DNA of 64,000 nt, taken from the NCBI GenBank assembly GCA_903970285.1, contig CAJCHN010000065.1, positions 1 through 64,000 on the forward strand, given 5' to 3'. This document shows positions 56,142 through 60,082 of this stretch, one piece after another. The DNA comes from Rhodanobacteraceae bacterium (lineage in GTDB: Bacteria; Acidobacteriota; Terriglobia; Terriglobales; Acidobacteriaceae). A model generated the notes under the pieces. That model searched no databases. It was given only the letters and a program-made list of their open reading frames with translations, and was not told the DNA's origin. The translations under genes were made by a program, and so were the position numbers. How positions within the stretch are numbered: position 1 is the stretch's first letter; every line of letters begins with the position of its first letter.

Positions 56142-57329
56142 TCATTGCTGCGCACGCTCCACCGCCAGCGCCACCGAATTCCCGCCGCCCAGGCACAGCG
56201 CCGCCACCCCCTTGTTCGCATCACTCCGCATCATCTCGTGGATCAGTGTCACCAGCACCCTCGCACCGCTGGCCCCGATCGGATGCCCGATCGCCACCGC
56301 GCCTCCATTCACGTTCACCTTCGACAGATCCAGCCCAAGCTCCTTTGTCACTCCCAGAGCCTGCACGCTGAAGGCTTCATTGAGCTCGTACAAGTCCACC
56401 TCATCCTTGCTCCAGCCGGCCTTCTGCAACACTCTCTGCACCCCCAGCACCGGAGCCAGCATCACCCATCTCGGCGCGACTCCGCTCATCGCCTGCGCCT
56501 TGATATGCACCAGCGGCTTCAGTCCCAATTCAGCGGCCTTGGCTGCCGACGCCAGCACCAGCGCAGCCGCCGCATCGTTCACCCCAGGAGCGTTCCCCGC
56601 CGTCACCGTGCCATCCTTCTTGAAGGCCGGCTTCAATGCCGCGAGCGTATCGAGCGATGCATCTTCGCGTACGCTCTCGTCACGATCGAAGACCGTTACT
56701 GCACCCTTTTTTCCTGGAACGTTGACCGGCACCACCTCCGCCGTGAATCTCCCTTCACGCCAGGCGGCCGCGGCTCTGCGATGCGACTCGAGCGCATACG
56801 CGTCCTGCTGTTCGCGCGTGATGCCATGCTTCTCGGCGACCAGTTCGCCCGTCATCCCCATGTGCTGGTTGTCGCACGCGCACCACAGCCCGTCATGAAC
56901 CATCGAGTCCACAACCTTCTGATCGCCCATCCGGTATCCCTGCCGAGCCTTCGGCAGCAGGTACGGCGCGTTCGACATCGACTCCATTCCGCCCGCAACC
57001 ACGATCTCCGCATCGCCCTCGAGGATCGCTTGCGCCCCCAGCGCCACTGCCTTCAATCCGCTGCCGCACACCATGTTGATGGTCAGCGCCGCAACCGTCT
57101 CCGCGAGTCCGCCGCGCAGCGCGGCCTGGCGCGCCGGGTTCTGTCCCAGCCCGGCCGGCAGCACGCAGCCCATGATGCATTCGTCCACAACGTCCGCGTG
57201 AACACCTGCGCGGACGACCGCCTCGCGCACAACGATCGCGCCCAGTTCGGTCGCACTCAACTCACTCAGCCCACCCTGAAACTTTCCCACCGCGGTTCGC
57301 ACCGCGCTCACGATCACCACATCCGTCAT
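56142..57329 (-). CDS. Acetyl-CoA C-acetyltransferase (thiolase)
   Basis: The protein has 395 residues. The nucleophile is C88 in [11 protein letters not shown], with [22 protein letters not shown] and the C-terminal [10 protein letters not shown] providing the His and second Cys sites. It condenses two acetyl-CoA to acetoacetyl-CoA or runs in reverse in beta-oxidation. The [17 protein letters not shown] start is the family N-terminus; the frame continues open upstream but not with thiolase sequence. Pseudogene remnants flank it on both sides. Confidence 0.94.
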
Positions 57330-57773: not shown

Positions 57774-57827
57774 CGGGCATGTGAAGCACAATCGGGGAAA
57801 GAAAACTCCGCCGTTCTCGTTTTTCTC

Positions 57828-57856
57828 TTGACACTTATTTTCCCTGAATCTATACC
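57828..57856 (+). promoter_or_regulatory. Strong sigma-70 type promoter
   Basis: TTGACA at 57828-57833, 17 bases, then TATACC at 57851-57856. The -35 box is perfect and the spacing optimal. The start of transcription would be near 57863. The only thing downstream on this strand before the terminator is the non-coding stretch below. Confidence 0.72.
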
Positions 57857-57862
57857 TTCGTT

Positions 57863-57992
57863 AGCTGCTTGAAGCATTCAGGCAACGGGCTGGGAGAATA
57901 GGCAAAACGCAGTCGCAAAGCGGTCCGCTTCGAAGGCAAACGAAGCGCACAAAAACCAGAAGGGGACGCCTTAAAGGCGTCCCCTTCTTTCG
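57863..57992 (+). ncRNA. Predicted orphan small RNA (~130 nt)
   Basis: Between a near-consensus promoter and an intrinsic terminator lies about 130 nt with no plausible reading frame. It can fold into competing hairpins: CGCTTCG (57926-57932) with CGAAGCG (57941-57947), or AAGCGG (57918-57923) with CCGCTT (57925-57930), which share bases. Two similar AGGCAAA-type segments occur (57899 and 57934 on). The next gene downstream is on the opposite strand, so this is a free-standing transcript and not a leader. I do not recognise an RNA family. Confidence 0.6.
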
Positions 57993-57994
57993 TT
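57960..57994. terminator. Perfect 11-bp intrinsic terminator, probably bidirectional
   Basis: AAGGGGACGCC (57960-57970), loop TTAAA, GGCGTCCCCTT (57976-57986), then CTTTCGTT. On the minus strand the same stem is followed by CTGGTTTTTG, so it can also end the coiled-coil protein gene, whose stop is 20 bases away. Confidence 0.85.
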
Positions 57995-58005
57995 CCGCAA
58001 CTATA

Positions 58006-58875
58006 TCAATTCGACGGCGCCGCCATCGGCTGCACCGCACCCTTCGGAGTCGAAAGATACCCTGAAATCTGGTTCTTCGAGATGTTGTTCACCACAATCT
58101 CGTAGAGCACCGGATCCTTGCCGGTGTAGAACTGCACCGGCTCGTCCAGGCTTTTGTCCTTCTTCTCGATGTTGCGGTCGTCCGCGCTCACCATCAGCGT
58201 GTAGCGCGAGTGCTTGTCATCCACCTTCTTGGCCTGCAGCTTGATGGTCGAGAGCAAGGTCGGCTTGGCGCCCTTCTGCAGCGTGAACTCGTAGTAGTTG
58301 CGATCGCCCTTATGCTTCAGTATCTCCAGCTCGTCGTGCGTCTTTGCAATCAGCCCGCTCATCACGCCCGCATCGCCGATCGTGCGCTGCAACTGCGCCT
58401 TGGTGTCGGCCAGGTCGCTCTGCGTAGCCGCGATGCTTGCCTTCGCGCCCCCTACATCGGTCTTCACGCTGGAGACATCCGTCTGCACCGCGCCCAACTT
58501 TGCCTCCGCGGCCTGCTCCTCCGCGGCTAGCTTGGCTGTCTTCTCACTCTGCGCCCGCACTGCCATCAACTGGGCTGCCTGCGCATTCATCAGCGCCTGC
58601 GTCCGAGCCTCGACCTGCTTCTGGGTCAGGCCAACACTCTGCCCCAGCGTCTCGGTCGTCGCCCGCAGCCGGTCGCTCAGCGCCTGCTGCTGCTCCGCCA
58701 ACTGCGTGTTCTTCTGTTCTGCAGCAGCCAGCTTCTGTTCGGCAACCGACAGGTGATTGCTTAACCCGTAGCACCACACCAGCGCTGCAATCGCCAGCAC
58801 CAGGGTGACCGCCAGCGCGACCAGCAGCTTGCCCGATACGTCCCTCGCTTCACTGCCCACTGTCCCCTCACTCAT
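58006..58875 (-). CDS. Membrane-anchored coiled-coil protein
   Basis: The protein has 289 residues from the ATG at 58875 (AAGGAGAG about 6 bases upstream). A short N-terminus, one helix (LLVALAVTLVLAIAALVWCY, about residues 15-34), then a long heptad region rich in Ala, Gln and Lys (about 40-180, for example EQKLAAAEQKNTQLAEQQQA). A C-terminal beta-rich domain (YYEFTLQKGAKP, YTLMVSADDRNI, YEIVVNNISKNQISGYLS) follows. It probably spans the periplasm as an oligomer. No family is recognised. Confidence 0.72.
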   Translation of the reverse strand: MSEGTVGSEARDVSGKLLVALAVTLVLAIAALVWCYGLSNHLSVAEQKLAAAEQKNTQLAEQQQALSDRLRATTETLGQSVGLTQKQVEARTQALMNAQAAQLMAVRAQSEKTAKLAAEEQAAEAKLGAVQTDVSSVKTDVGGAKASIAATQSDLADTKAQLQRTIGDAGVMSGLIAKTHDELEILKHKGDRNYYEFTLQKGAKPTLLSTIKLQAKKVDDKHSRYTLMVSADDRNIEKKDKSLDEPVQFYTGKDPVLYEIVVNNISKNQISGYLSTPKGAVQPMAAPSN

Positions 58876-59062: not shown

Positions 59063-60082
59063 GTGGCTTCTCCGGAATTCCTCATCGCCGGCGCCGGCGT
59101 CATCGGCCTCTCGCTCGCACTCGAACTCGATCGCCGCGGCTCTTCGGTGACCGTCCTCGATACCGGAAGAGCGATGCAGCAGACCAGTTCCGCCGCGGCA
59201 GGCATGCTCGCCGTGCACGACCCTTTGAATCCTCCCGAGCTGTTGCCGCTGGCCCAGCTCAGTGCTGCGCTCTATCCCGCTTACCTCGACCGCATCGCGG
59301 AGCTTTGCGGGTCGATCGTTCCTTTTCAGACTTCGGCAACACTCGAATCCGGAGAGCTCGAAGGTTCTTTACCAGATCCGCGTGAATTGGTTCCGCAGCT
59401 CGATCCGCAAGGCCAGTCTTTTCATCTGCTGGCAGAGCACTCGGTCGACCCGCGCCAGCTCGCCGGCGCGCTGCTCGCCGCGGTGCGTCGCACGCGCATC
59501 AACCTGCGCGAGCAGACCTCGCTCGTGCGCCTCGCAACCACGCCGGCAACGGTTCGCGTCCAGTCCTCCGCCGGCCCGCTCGAAGCCTCCACCGTGATCG
59601 ACTGTATGGGCGCATGGTCACCTGCACCCATCGCGCCGCGCAAGGGACAGATGCTGGCGGTGCGCATGCCGGCTGAGCTTGACCTCGCATGCGTCGTCCG
59701 CACACCGGAGGTGTACATCGTCCCGCGCACCGACGGGCCCGATGCCGGCCGCGCCATCATCGGAGCCACTCTTGAAGATGCGGGATTCGACCTGACCGTG
59801 CACGCGGCGGACATCCTCACGCTCAATGCGAAGGCCATCAGGCTGATTCCGGCGCTGGCTGACGCCGAGTTCCTGGAGTCCTGGTCGGGCCTGCGGCCGG
59901 CGACGGCGGATGGTCTGCCAATGCTCGGCCCGGCGCCCGCCCAGCCACGCTATGTGCTGGCAAACGGCCACTTCCGCAACGGCATTCTGCTGGCGCCCGC
60001 AACTGCCCATGTGATCGCTCAGCTGCTCTGCGGAGAGACACCCCTCCTTGATCTCACTCCGTTCAATCCGGCGCGCTTTTAG
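59063..60082 (+). CDS. thiO: FAD-dependent glycine oxidase-like enzyme (ThiO type)
   Basis: The protein has 339 residues of the DAO family. The N-terminal FAD loop is IAGAGVIGLSLALELDRRG. SSAAAGMLAVHDP follows, the usual ThiO/GlyOX signature, then WSGLRPATADGLPMLGPAP and GHFRNGILLAPATAHVIA near the end. ThiO makes iminoglycine for thiamine thiazole synthesis. No thiamine gene is adjacent, so another amine substrate is possible. The GTG start at 59063 has AGCTAGG just upstream. Confidence 0.85.
   Translation: MASPEFLIAGAGVIGLSLALELDRRGSSVTVLDTGRAMQQTSSAAAGMLAVHDPLNPPELLPLAQLSAALYPAYLDRIAELCGSIVPFQTSATLESGELEGSLPDPRELVPQLDPQGQSFHLLAEHSVDPRQLAGALLAAVRRTRINLREQTSLVRLATTPATVRVQSSAGPLEASTVIDCMGAWSPAPIAPRKGQMLAVRMPAELDLACVVRTPEVYIVPRTDGPDAGRAIIGATLEDAGFDLTVHAADILTLNAKAIRLIPALADAEFLESWSGLRPATADGLPMLGPAPAQPRYVLANGHFRNGILLAPATAHVIAQLLCGETPLLDLTPFNPARF

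Follow-up and report, generated by a model that had tools for sequence, protein, structure and literature searches.

What is made from a short stretch of DNA that lies between a strong promoter and a terminator-like hairpin, but in which no protein can be read? The question is raised by a locus close to one end of the window, the 64,000-nt stretch of DNA from a soil bacterium analyzed here. In the original prediction, the locus was described as a free-standing gene for a small RNA with a possible switching fold. Apart from the fold, that description fits the window copy, which has no ORF, but most relatives carry the unit as a tiny protein-coding gene. The coding relatives had been missed because a comparison with relatives was needed to see them. 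The features of the locus and its two neighbors are collected in Table 1.

Table 1. Positions of the unit and its neighboring genes in the window
Feature	Coordinates	Strand	Remarks
Divergent thiolase gene	56142..57329	-	Pfam Thiolase_N and Thiolase_C; upstream neighbor in many coding and some ORF-less forms
Promoter	57819..57856	+	T-rich stretch; -35 box TTGACA, 57828-57833; 17-nt spacer; -10 box TATACC, 57851-57856; direct reading
Predicted transcript	57863..57994	+	About 130 nt; deduced from promoter and terminator-like hairpin
5' hairpin (hp1)	57866..57884	+	From the fold; other form in relatives
RBS-like motif GGGAGAATAGGCAAA	57892..57906	+	Kept though the ORF is gone; contains a GGCAA copy, 57901-57905
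ACG where the start codon was lost	57907..57909	+	15 nt downstream of the first G in GGGAG
Hairpin CGCTTCG-AAGGCAAA-CGAAGCG	57926..57947	+	GGCAA copy, 57935-57939, in the loop
Terminator-like hairpin	57958..57988	+	14 bp, 3-nt loop
Convergent 289-aa gene	58006..58875	-	No Pfam match over cut-off; usual downstream neighbor within the genus

The promoter boxes and spacer were found exactly as predicted. The pattern TTGACA-N17-TATA occurred only once in the 64 kb (both strands) and in none of 100 dinucleotide shuffles, and CTTGAC and CTATA were invariant across 42 aligned loci. A simple promoter scan missed this promoter because it accepts a -10 box only if the sixth base is T. Transcription would start at A57863, a position deduced from the -10 box. 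The fold of the 129-nt RNA gave a z score of -4.9, to which the terminator helix contributes. Within it, the hairpin at 57926-57947 was predicted with pair probabilities of 0.97 to 1.00 for six of seven pairs and 0.46 for the outermost pair. This hairpin had been proposed to compete with another at 57918-57930. Both exist and are mutually exclusive, but the latter alone reached -2.9 kcal/mol versus -9.2 kcal/mol, with a pairing probability of 0.00 versus about 1, and there is therefore no sign of a switch. The predicted terminator also stood in part: the hairpin is present and longer than the 11 bp first noted, but its U-tract is weak on the plus strand (TTCTTTCGTT) and better on the minus strand (GGTTTTTG). 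Thus, the hairpin probably also ends the convergent gene and would be used from both sides.

The space of about 130 nt indeed lacks a usable reading frame. No plus-strand ORF of at least 20 codons (ATG, GTG, or TTG start) was found to overlap the unit; within the predicted transcript, a single TTG opens a frame of 10 codons and two CTG open frames of 3 and 66 codons, the last of which runs out through the terminator. The next long plus-strand ORF starts at 59063, about 1.07 kb away, so there is no gene in this genome for which the unit could serve as leader; it is a transcription unit that stands by itself, between a promoter and a terminator-like hairpin of its own. Both points are as originally claimed. 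The lack of a recognized RNA family was likewise borne out: no Rfam family reached its gathering score at the window unit or in 17 loci (the window's included), and matches at the unit with E up to 10 were all sub-threshold. The best of these was RefA9 (57940-57984; E, 0.056; score, 25.7 versus a gathering score of 49). The window's sole Rfam match at gathering score lies elsewhere and is the bacterial small SRP RNA (RF00169; 23127-23224, minus strand, 65.9 bits).

By DNA search of 61 genomes (the window's own included), the locus was found in 35, all in genus group g1, the window's genus, of which 35 of 37 genomes carried it. The match among g1 genomes was chiefly to the promoter and the transcript start. 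The family-wide DNA search gave 66 of 300 genomes. Between their promoter and terminator, the relatives have AGGGAGAATAGGCAA or a similar sequence and then a tiny ORF, for example, MATKKAAKKAAKKPAKKAAKKK; this ORF was present in 27 of the first 30 loci, and the ORF-less ones were the window, G030, and G019. A covariance model running from the promoter to the start codon (R2) was run on 40 chosen genomes, most of them low scorers; 32 had one match each, and the other 8 had none (G400, G021, G005, G076, G104, G209, G303, and G103). Class-wide, R2 matched 75 of 299 genomes, fewer than R3, a model that takes in distant members. With a threshold of E up to 0.01, R3 gave one match per genome in 163 of the 299 (71 in the window's family and 92 outside, as counted from the matches listed). 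Both models end at or just past the start codon. In a phylum-wide draw, R3 matched 28 of 247 genomes, 27 in the class and one outside it (G669; E, 0.0086); the outside match is without a lysine-rich ORF and was taken as chance. A whole-unit model (R1) matched 389 of 398 family genomes, a figure that was set aside, since unrelated lysine-rich tails may be picked up by the K/A-rich part of this model.

Named genomes were also scanned with a pattern, which gave 63 loci, in Edaphobacter, Granulicella, Terriglobus roseus, Silvibacterium, Acidipila, Paracidobacterium, and MAGs. Their record titles read Acidobacteriaceae or Acidobacteria in every case except L187 (JANXWZ010000176.1). This record, titled a Rhodanobacteraceae MAG, carries an Acidobacteriaceae unit, and its title or binning looks wrong; its ORF-less sequence is that of G405:C242, and the two are probably the same record. 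Taken by homology, the window locus belongs to a single-copy gene that is spread over much of an Acidobacteria class and apparently undescribed.

The unit in relatives usually contains a ribosome-binding site and a lysine-rich ORF of 11 to 83 aa, typically MATKKAAKKAAKKPAKKAAKKK. Among 131 distinct units, 106 were coding, with ORFs of 12 to 37 residues that passed a filter of more than 30% lysine, and 25 were ORF-less. The set includes one unit from outside the family as well as low scorers, and because the latter were fetched on purpose, 25 of 131 is not a frequency. The less biased set of 63 loci held 56 coding and 6 ORF-less units and one cut by the end of its stretch. T makes up only 1.6% of the ORF interior, so an open frame by itself proves little, and the evidence for coding comes from the substitution pattern together with start and stop. 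Stops in the 106 coding units were TAA (84), TAG (21), and TGA (1). In 39 independent ORF pairs of equal length, the third-position share of changes was 0.739, compared with a null mean of 0.383 and a maximum of 0.465 in 1,000, and the synonymous share of changed codons was 0.734, compared with 0.290 and a maximum of 0.383. Judged by this pattern, the ORF in homologous units is selected as protein. A short ORF under purifying selection thus lies inside a transcript whose small RNA size is predicted from promoter and hairpin.

Outside the family, 22 units were read, hand-picked from the 92 R3 matches across eight families and a range of scores. All 22 encode a lysine-rich peptide of 11 to 83 residues, from MAAKKKAKKKR to K/A/P repeats; therefore, coding is most likely the ancestral state. 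In three units of family f6 (L277, L278, and L280), the gene has grown to K/A/P repeat proteins of 56 to 83 residues, histone H1-like in look, which gave no curated-family match over the cut-off (two of the three were also compared with Pfam). Searches of Pfam and NCBIfam with short and long forms of the peptide returned nothing over the cut-off and weak matches only, among them the histone H1-like NF038053 (E, 0.65, with a 37-aa form), and a 22-aa peptide had no match among solved structures. Its composition is like that of histone H1-like protein tails, and on this basis the most likely role of the peptide is to bind DNA, RNA, or another polyanion.

In the window copy, the peptide is absent: ACG replaces ATG, the frame is open through the hairpin, and no other usable plus-strand ORF is present. 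The GGGAG of the RBS-like motif was invariant in 42 loci; in the 106 units that code, ATG follows the first G of this motif by 12 to 17 nt, with a distance of 15 nt in 43. At the same distance, ACG was found in 16 of the 25 ORF-less units, in several lineages (as counted from the printed table). This recurrent ACG could be a relic of one older, shared loss followed by regain, a repeated identical lesion, or a rare start codon in use. One ORF-less genome of the window's clade (G405) still shows ACGGCAACCGCAAGGAAGCCGC, which resembles the coding ATGGCAACCAAGAAGGCAGCC. The window genome was searched for another copy of the peptide with ATGGCNRCNAARAARRCNGC, which stands for one start pattern among other possible starts, and this pattern had no match.

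An RpoB tree with 37 genomes was used to follow the history of the ORF (RpoB was taken by homology); coding state was known for 34 of these, and 16 were ORF-less. At least four changes of coding state were needed. A single clade of all 16 ORF-less genomes was rejected (p-AU, 0.0001), and so was a single clade of the six within g1 (p-AU, 0.0003). As the fewest changes alone cannot separate loss from regain, a reading of five ORF losses presupposes an ancestral coding state and no regain. The window, G405, G019, G421, and G030 formed one RpoB clade (93/87), and in the tree of the convergent gene these five were grouped with the coding G295. All ORF-less genomes on the RpoB tree fell outside the clade whose peptides end in H.

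The unit as a whole can also disappear. On the RpoB tree, G005 lies near the window's clade, in a group of weak support (80/35). It retains thiolase, convergent gene, and a hairpin, and has lost the promoter and RNA; decay therefore occurs, and the promoter can go when the unit is not needed. In G400, beside G005 on the tree, there is no unit next to the convergent gene, and the hairpin is present with other upstream genes. No unit was seen in the short stretch beside the convergent gene of G021; in that genome, the convergent gene (L288) has one in-frame stop. Given G005 and the 8 of 40 genomes without an R2 match, the unit is dispensable, which counts against the account favored below. In the window and several other lineages, as read from these sequences, the peptide is lost but the RNA gene is kept.

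The synteny that had been named as support for the prediction was found: the neighbors are often the same in relatives, and the promoter and RBS-like motif are conserved there. The thiolase was present in 26 of 43 representative loci, always divergent, including 7 of 15 ORF-less representatives. These loci are stretches of unequal length (about 3 or 6 to 8 kb), and L125 was not assessed because the unit pattern was not found in it. The thiolase was missing from 16 of the 43, among them 7-kb loci of g48 (two), g60 (two), G198, and G397; in G397, none of three neighbors (thiolase, convergent gene, and rsmE-like gene) was found. The convergent gene stood next to the unit in 9 of 10 g1 representatives.

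Selection on the RNA after loss of the ORF was examined by sequence identity. For the five ORF-less species of the window's clade, pairwise identity averaged 0.79 in the promoter and 0.89 in the RBS-like motif, compared with 0.38 and 0.29 in the flanks; it was 0.45 in the 5' UTR, 0.46 in the terminator, and 0.33 in the interior. The interior here is not above the flanks, and the 5' UTR and terminator are only slightly above, so the argument for an RNA function in this clade is built on the promoter, the RBS-like motif, and the GGCAA counts given below. Other ORF-less groups kept more. Seven units of g80 had an interior identity of 0.88 and a motif identity of 1.00 with flanks of 0.30 and 0.25, and six g48-type units had an interior identity of 0.66 versus 0.31 in the flanks. 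The latter set was chosen (L073, L213, L241, L248, L249, and L165) and is without the other type (L076, L250, and L251); L213, from Terriglobus roseus, is placed in g48 by inference from its sequence. L073 and L213 carry another hairpin, with GGCAAAG in its loop. In the ORF-less L250 and L251 of genus g48, a different interior (GGCGAC...ACCGCC) stands in place of the GGCAAAG hairpin. Conservation of the interior in close relatives, on which the original prediction had staked itself, was thus found in these other groups, but in the window's own clade only as GGCAA motifs. In relatives, hp1 was kept through changes on both sides in 30 cells versus 8.9 in shuffles of the diverse alignment A3, and in 5 versus 1.1 on A2; in the terminator, both sides had changed with the pair kept for 8 of 13 predicted pairs (A1, 42 loci).

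The motif GGCAA, which was picked after the sequences had been seen, had 65 copies in the interiors of 24 ORF-less units, with the RBS copy counted, compared with 14.5 ± 3.4 in 200 shuffles; L156, the remaining ORF-less unit, was left out, since no terminator was found in it. Without the RBS copy, the window's clade had 13 copies, with 2.45 ± 1.37 expected and a maximum of 7 in 2,000 shuffles. The window has an additional GGCAA at 57881-57885, in the 3' arm of the 5' hairpin and outside the counted interiors. The motif was also frequent in the 3' UTRs of coding units, with 72 copies in 103 of them (3 of the 106 were dropped) versus 20.3 ± 3.8 in shuffles. Inside ORFs it was not clearly enriched (123 versus 114.6 ± 7.1 in synonymous shuffles). 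GGCAA sites were unpaired at 0.70, compared with 0.56 for other 5-mers and 0.60 for 5-mers of the same composition. A 3' UTR copy was found in 66 of 89 family units with a peptide not ending in H, in 4 of 16 with a peptide ending in H, and in 0 of 22 outside the family; thus, the motif seems to have arisen inside the family. Part of the GGCAA could derive from the old ORF context (ATGGCAACC). The retention of promoter, RBS-like motif, and GGCAA after loss of the ORF points to an RNA function that would be independent of the ORF.

We consider it probable, on comparison of these sequences, that the unit began as a micro-mRNA, became dual-function, and then lost its ORF, and that the window copy is a small RNA probably acting via unpaired GGCAA. 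The ancestral gene would have made a short transcript from a strong sigma-70-type promoter, with 5' hairpins, a AGGGAGAAUAG ribosome-binding site, a lysine-rich ORF (11 to 83 codons in the units read), and then a GC-rich terminator. In one branch of the family, GGCAA motifs would have been added to the RNA, which itself probably took on a second function. The ORF would then have been lost in several lineages of that branch, the window's clade included, with the promoter, RBS-like motif, and GGCAA motifs retained; in the window, ACG stands at the former start. The window RNA is most likely small and non-coding and may present GGCAA in single strands and in a hairpin loop, where the motif could titrate an RNA-binding protein or pair with UUGCC-containing RNAs. 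The sequences themselves show the homology, the coding signature in relatives, the ORF-less state of the window copy, and the retention of promoter and motif; transcription, translation, and the GGCAA partner are inferred in this proposal. The broader form of the account describes a class-wide micro-gene whose peptide, like a histone tail, goes down to 11 residues, whose transcript gained a regulatory function based on GGCAA in one family, and whose peptide was dropped several times, giving a series from mRNA through dual-function to non-coding RNA. We hold this broader form to be slightly less likely than not.

The same observations could also describe a dying pseudogene of the peptide gene, in which promoter and hairpin linger and the RNA does nothing. 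Such a relic would explain why interior identity in the window's clade equals that of the flanks, and both the outright loss of the unit in G005 and its absence beside the convergent gene in G400 agree with it; a lingering hairpin would be expected in any case, as the convergent gene probably needs it. It does not explain why, in five ORF-less species with flanks as far diverged as 0.38 and 0.29, the promoter and RBS-like motif are not diverged, why GGCAA is found at 13 copies instead of 2.45, or why the g80 and g48-type interiors are conserved. We regard a mere relic as unlikely. The opposite possibility, that the window is still translated from ACG 57907 or another non-standard start, draws on the intact RBS-like motif, on the ACG standing exactly at the start position here and within 12 to 17 nt in 16 of the 25 ORF-less units, and on the basic nature of the frame, which up to the end of the hairpin has 27 codons with 3 K and 6 R, although it is not of the K/A type. 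But this frame runs through the terminator hairpin, for 52 codons to a stop at 58063. The frames from ACG in other ORF-less units range from 8 to 53 codons or have no stop within the stretch examined, and there is therefore no ORF common to ORF-less units. Continued coding is accordingly given very little credence.

A leader or attenuator with a lysine-rich leader peptide would serve a downstream rRNA methyltransferase-like gene, which we call rsmE from its first residues. This same-strand gene follows the unit in 23 of 43 representatives, all outside the window's genus (none in g1 or in six genera with H-ending peptides), and its match starts +196 to +506 from the -35 box. A same-strand downstream gene is not common to all members, however: the next gene is convergent in 9 of 10 representatives of the window's genus, and the rsmE-like gene lies on the opposite strand in g47 and g38, yet the unit is kept. 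Promoter and hairpin stay with the unit in these differing gene settings, which argues against a leader, and we regard this reading as very unlikely. There is finally the reading closest to the original prediction, a regulatory small RNA of the ordinary stand-alone kind, with a switching fold and no coding past. The absence of a usable ORF in the window and the strong promoter with its terminator-like hairpin are what it would lead one to expect. Its history is contradicted by orthologous units that encode a peptide under purifying selection and by coding in all 22 units read outside the family, and its switch by the zero pairing probability of the first competing hairpin; as a whole it is scarcely credible. 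Its regulatory part overlaps the favored account, in which the ORF was lost from a dual-function gene and a small RNA remained.

If that account is true, the Acidobacteria hold a replicated natural experiment on the passage from mRNA to non-coding RNA. One promoter and RNA frame would be shared by forms with and without the ORF, and cultured strains (Terriglobus roseus, Edaphobacter, and Granulicella) are included. The units would also add a family of tiny conserved bacterial ORFs, mostly of 11 to 27 residues in the units read, that matched no curated family; in this soil phylum, the peptides might take part in nucleic-acid binding. In addition, the GGCAA motif makes the search for a partner, protein or RNA, testable.

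No description of the locus was found in the titles and abstract openings of the open-access literature searched, a body that leaves many subscription papers and preprints outside, and the start sequences of the peptide did not occur in the open-access literature searched. Pseudomonas AlgP is a lysine-rich, low-complexity protein, and the unit peptides are like it and like Chlamydia Hc2 in their lysine-rich, low-complexity sequence of variable length. The size of Hc2 varies with the number of its lysine-rich pentamers (PMC2848022). The peptides differ from Hc1, Hc2, and AlgP in that no profile match exceeded the cut-off, most of those read have 11 to 27 residues, and DNA binding is only predicted. 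Acido-1 (RF01686) and Acido-Lenti-1 (RF01687) have been reported as candidate non-coding RNAs of Acidobacteria (PMC2864571). Neither reached its gathering score at the unit of the window or at any of 17 loci of the unit.

The enterobacterial SgrS/SgrT system is more alike in design, as a small RNA with a short ORF ahead of the terminator. Rfam includes an SgrS model, and the window unit and 17 loci were without any Rfam family at gathering score. The two systems belong to different phyla, and no sequence relation was found; the unit is set apart by its lysine-rich, polycationic peptide, its class-wide spread, and base-pairing that is only putative. SgrS is the closest known case to the window unit: the RNA is kept without the ORF in Yersinia, and the start codon of sgrT is altered in E. 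coli O157:H7 (PMC4021124).
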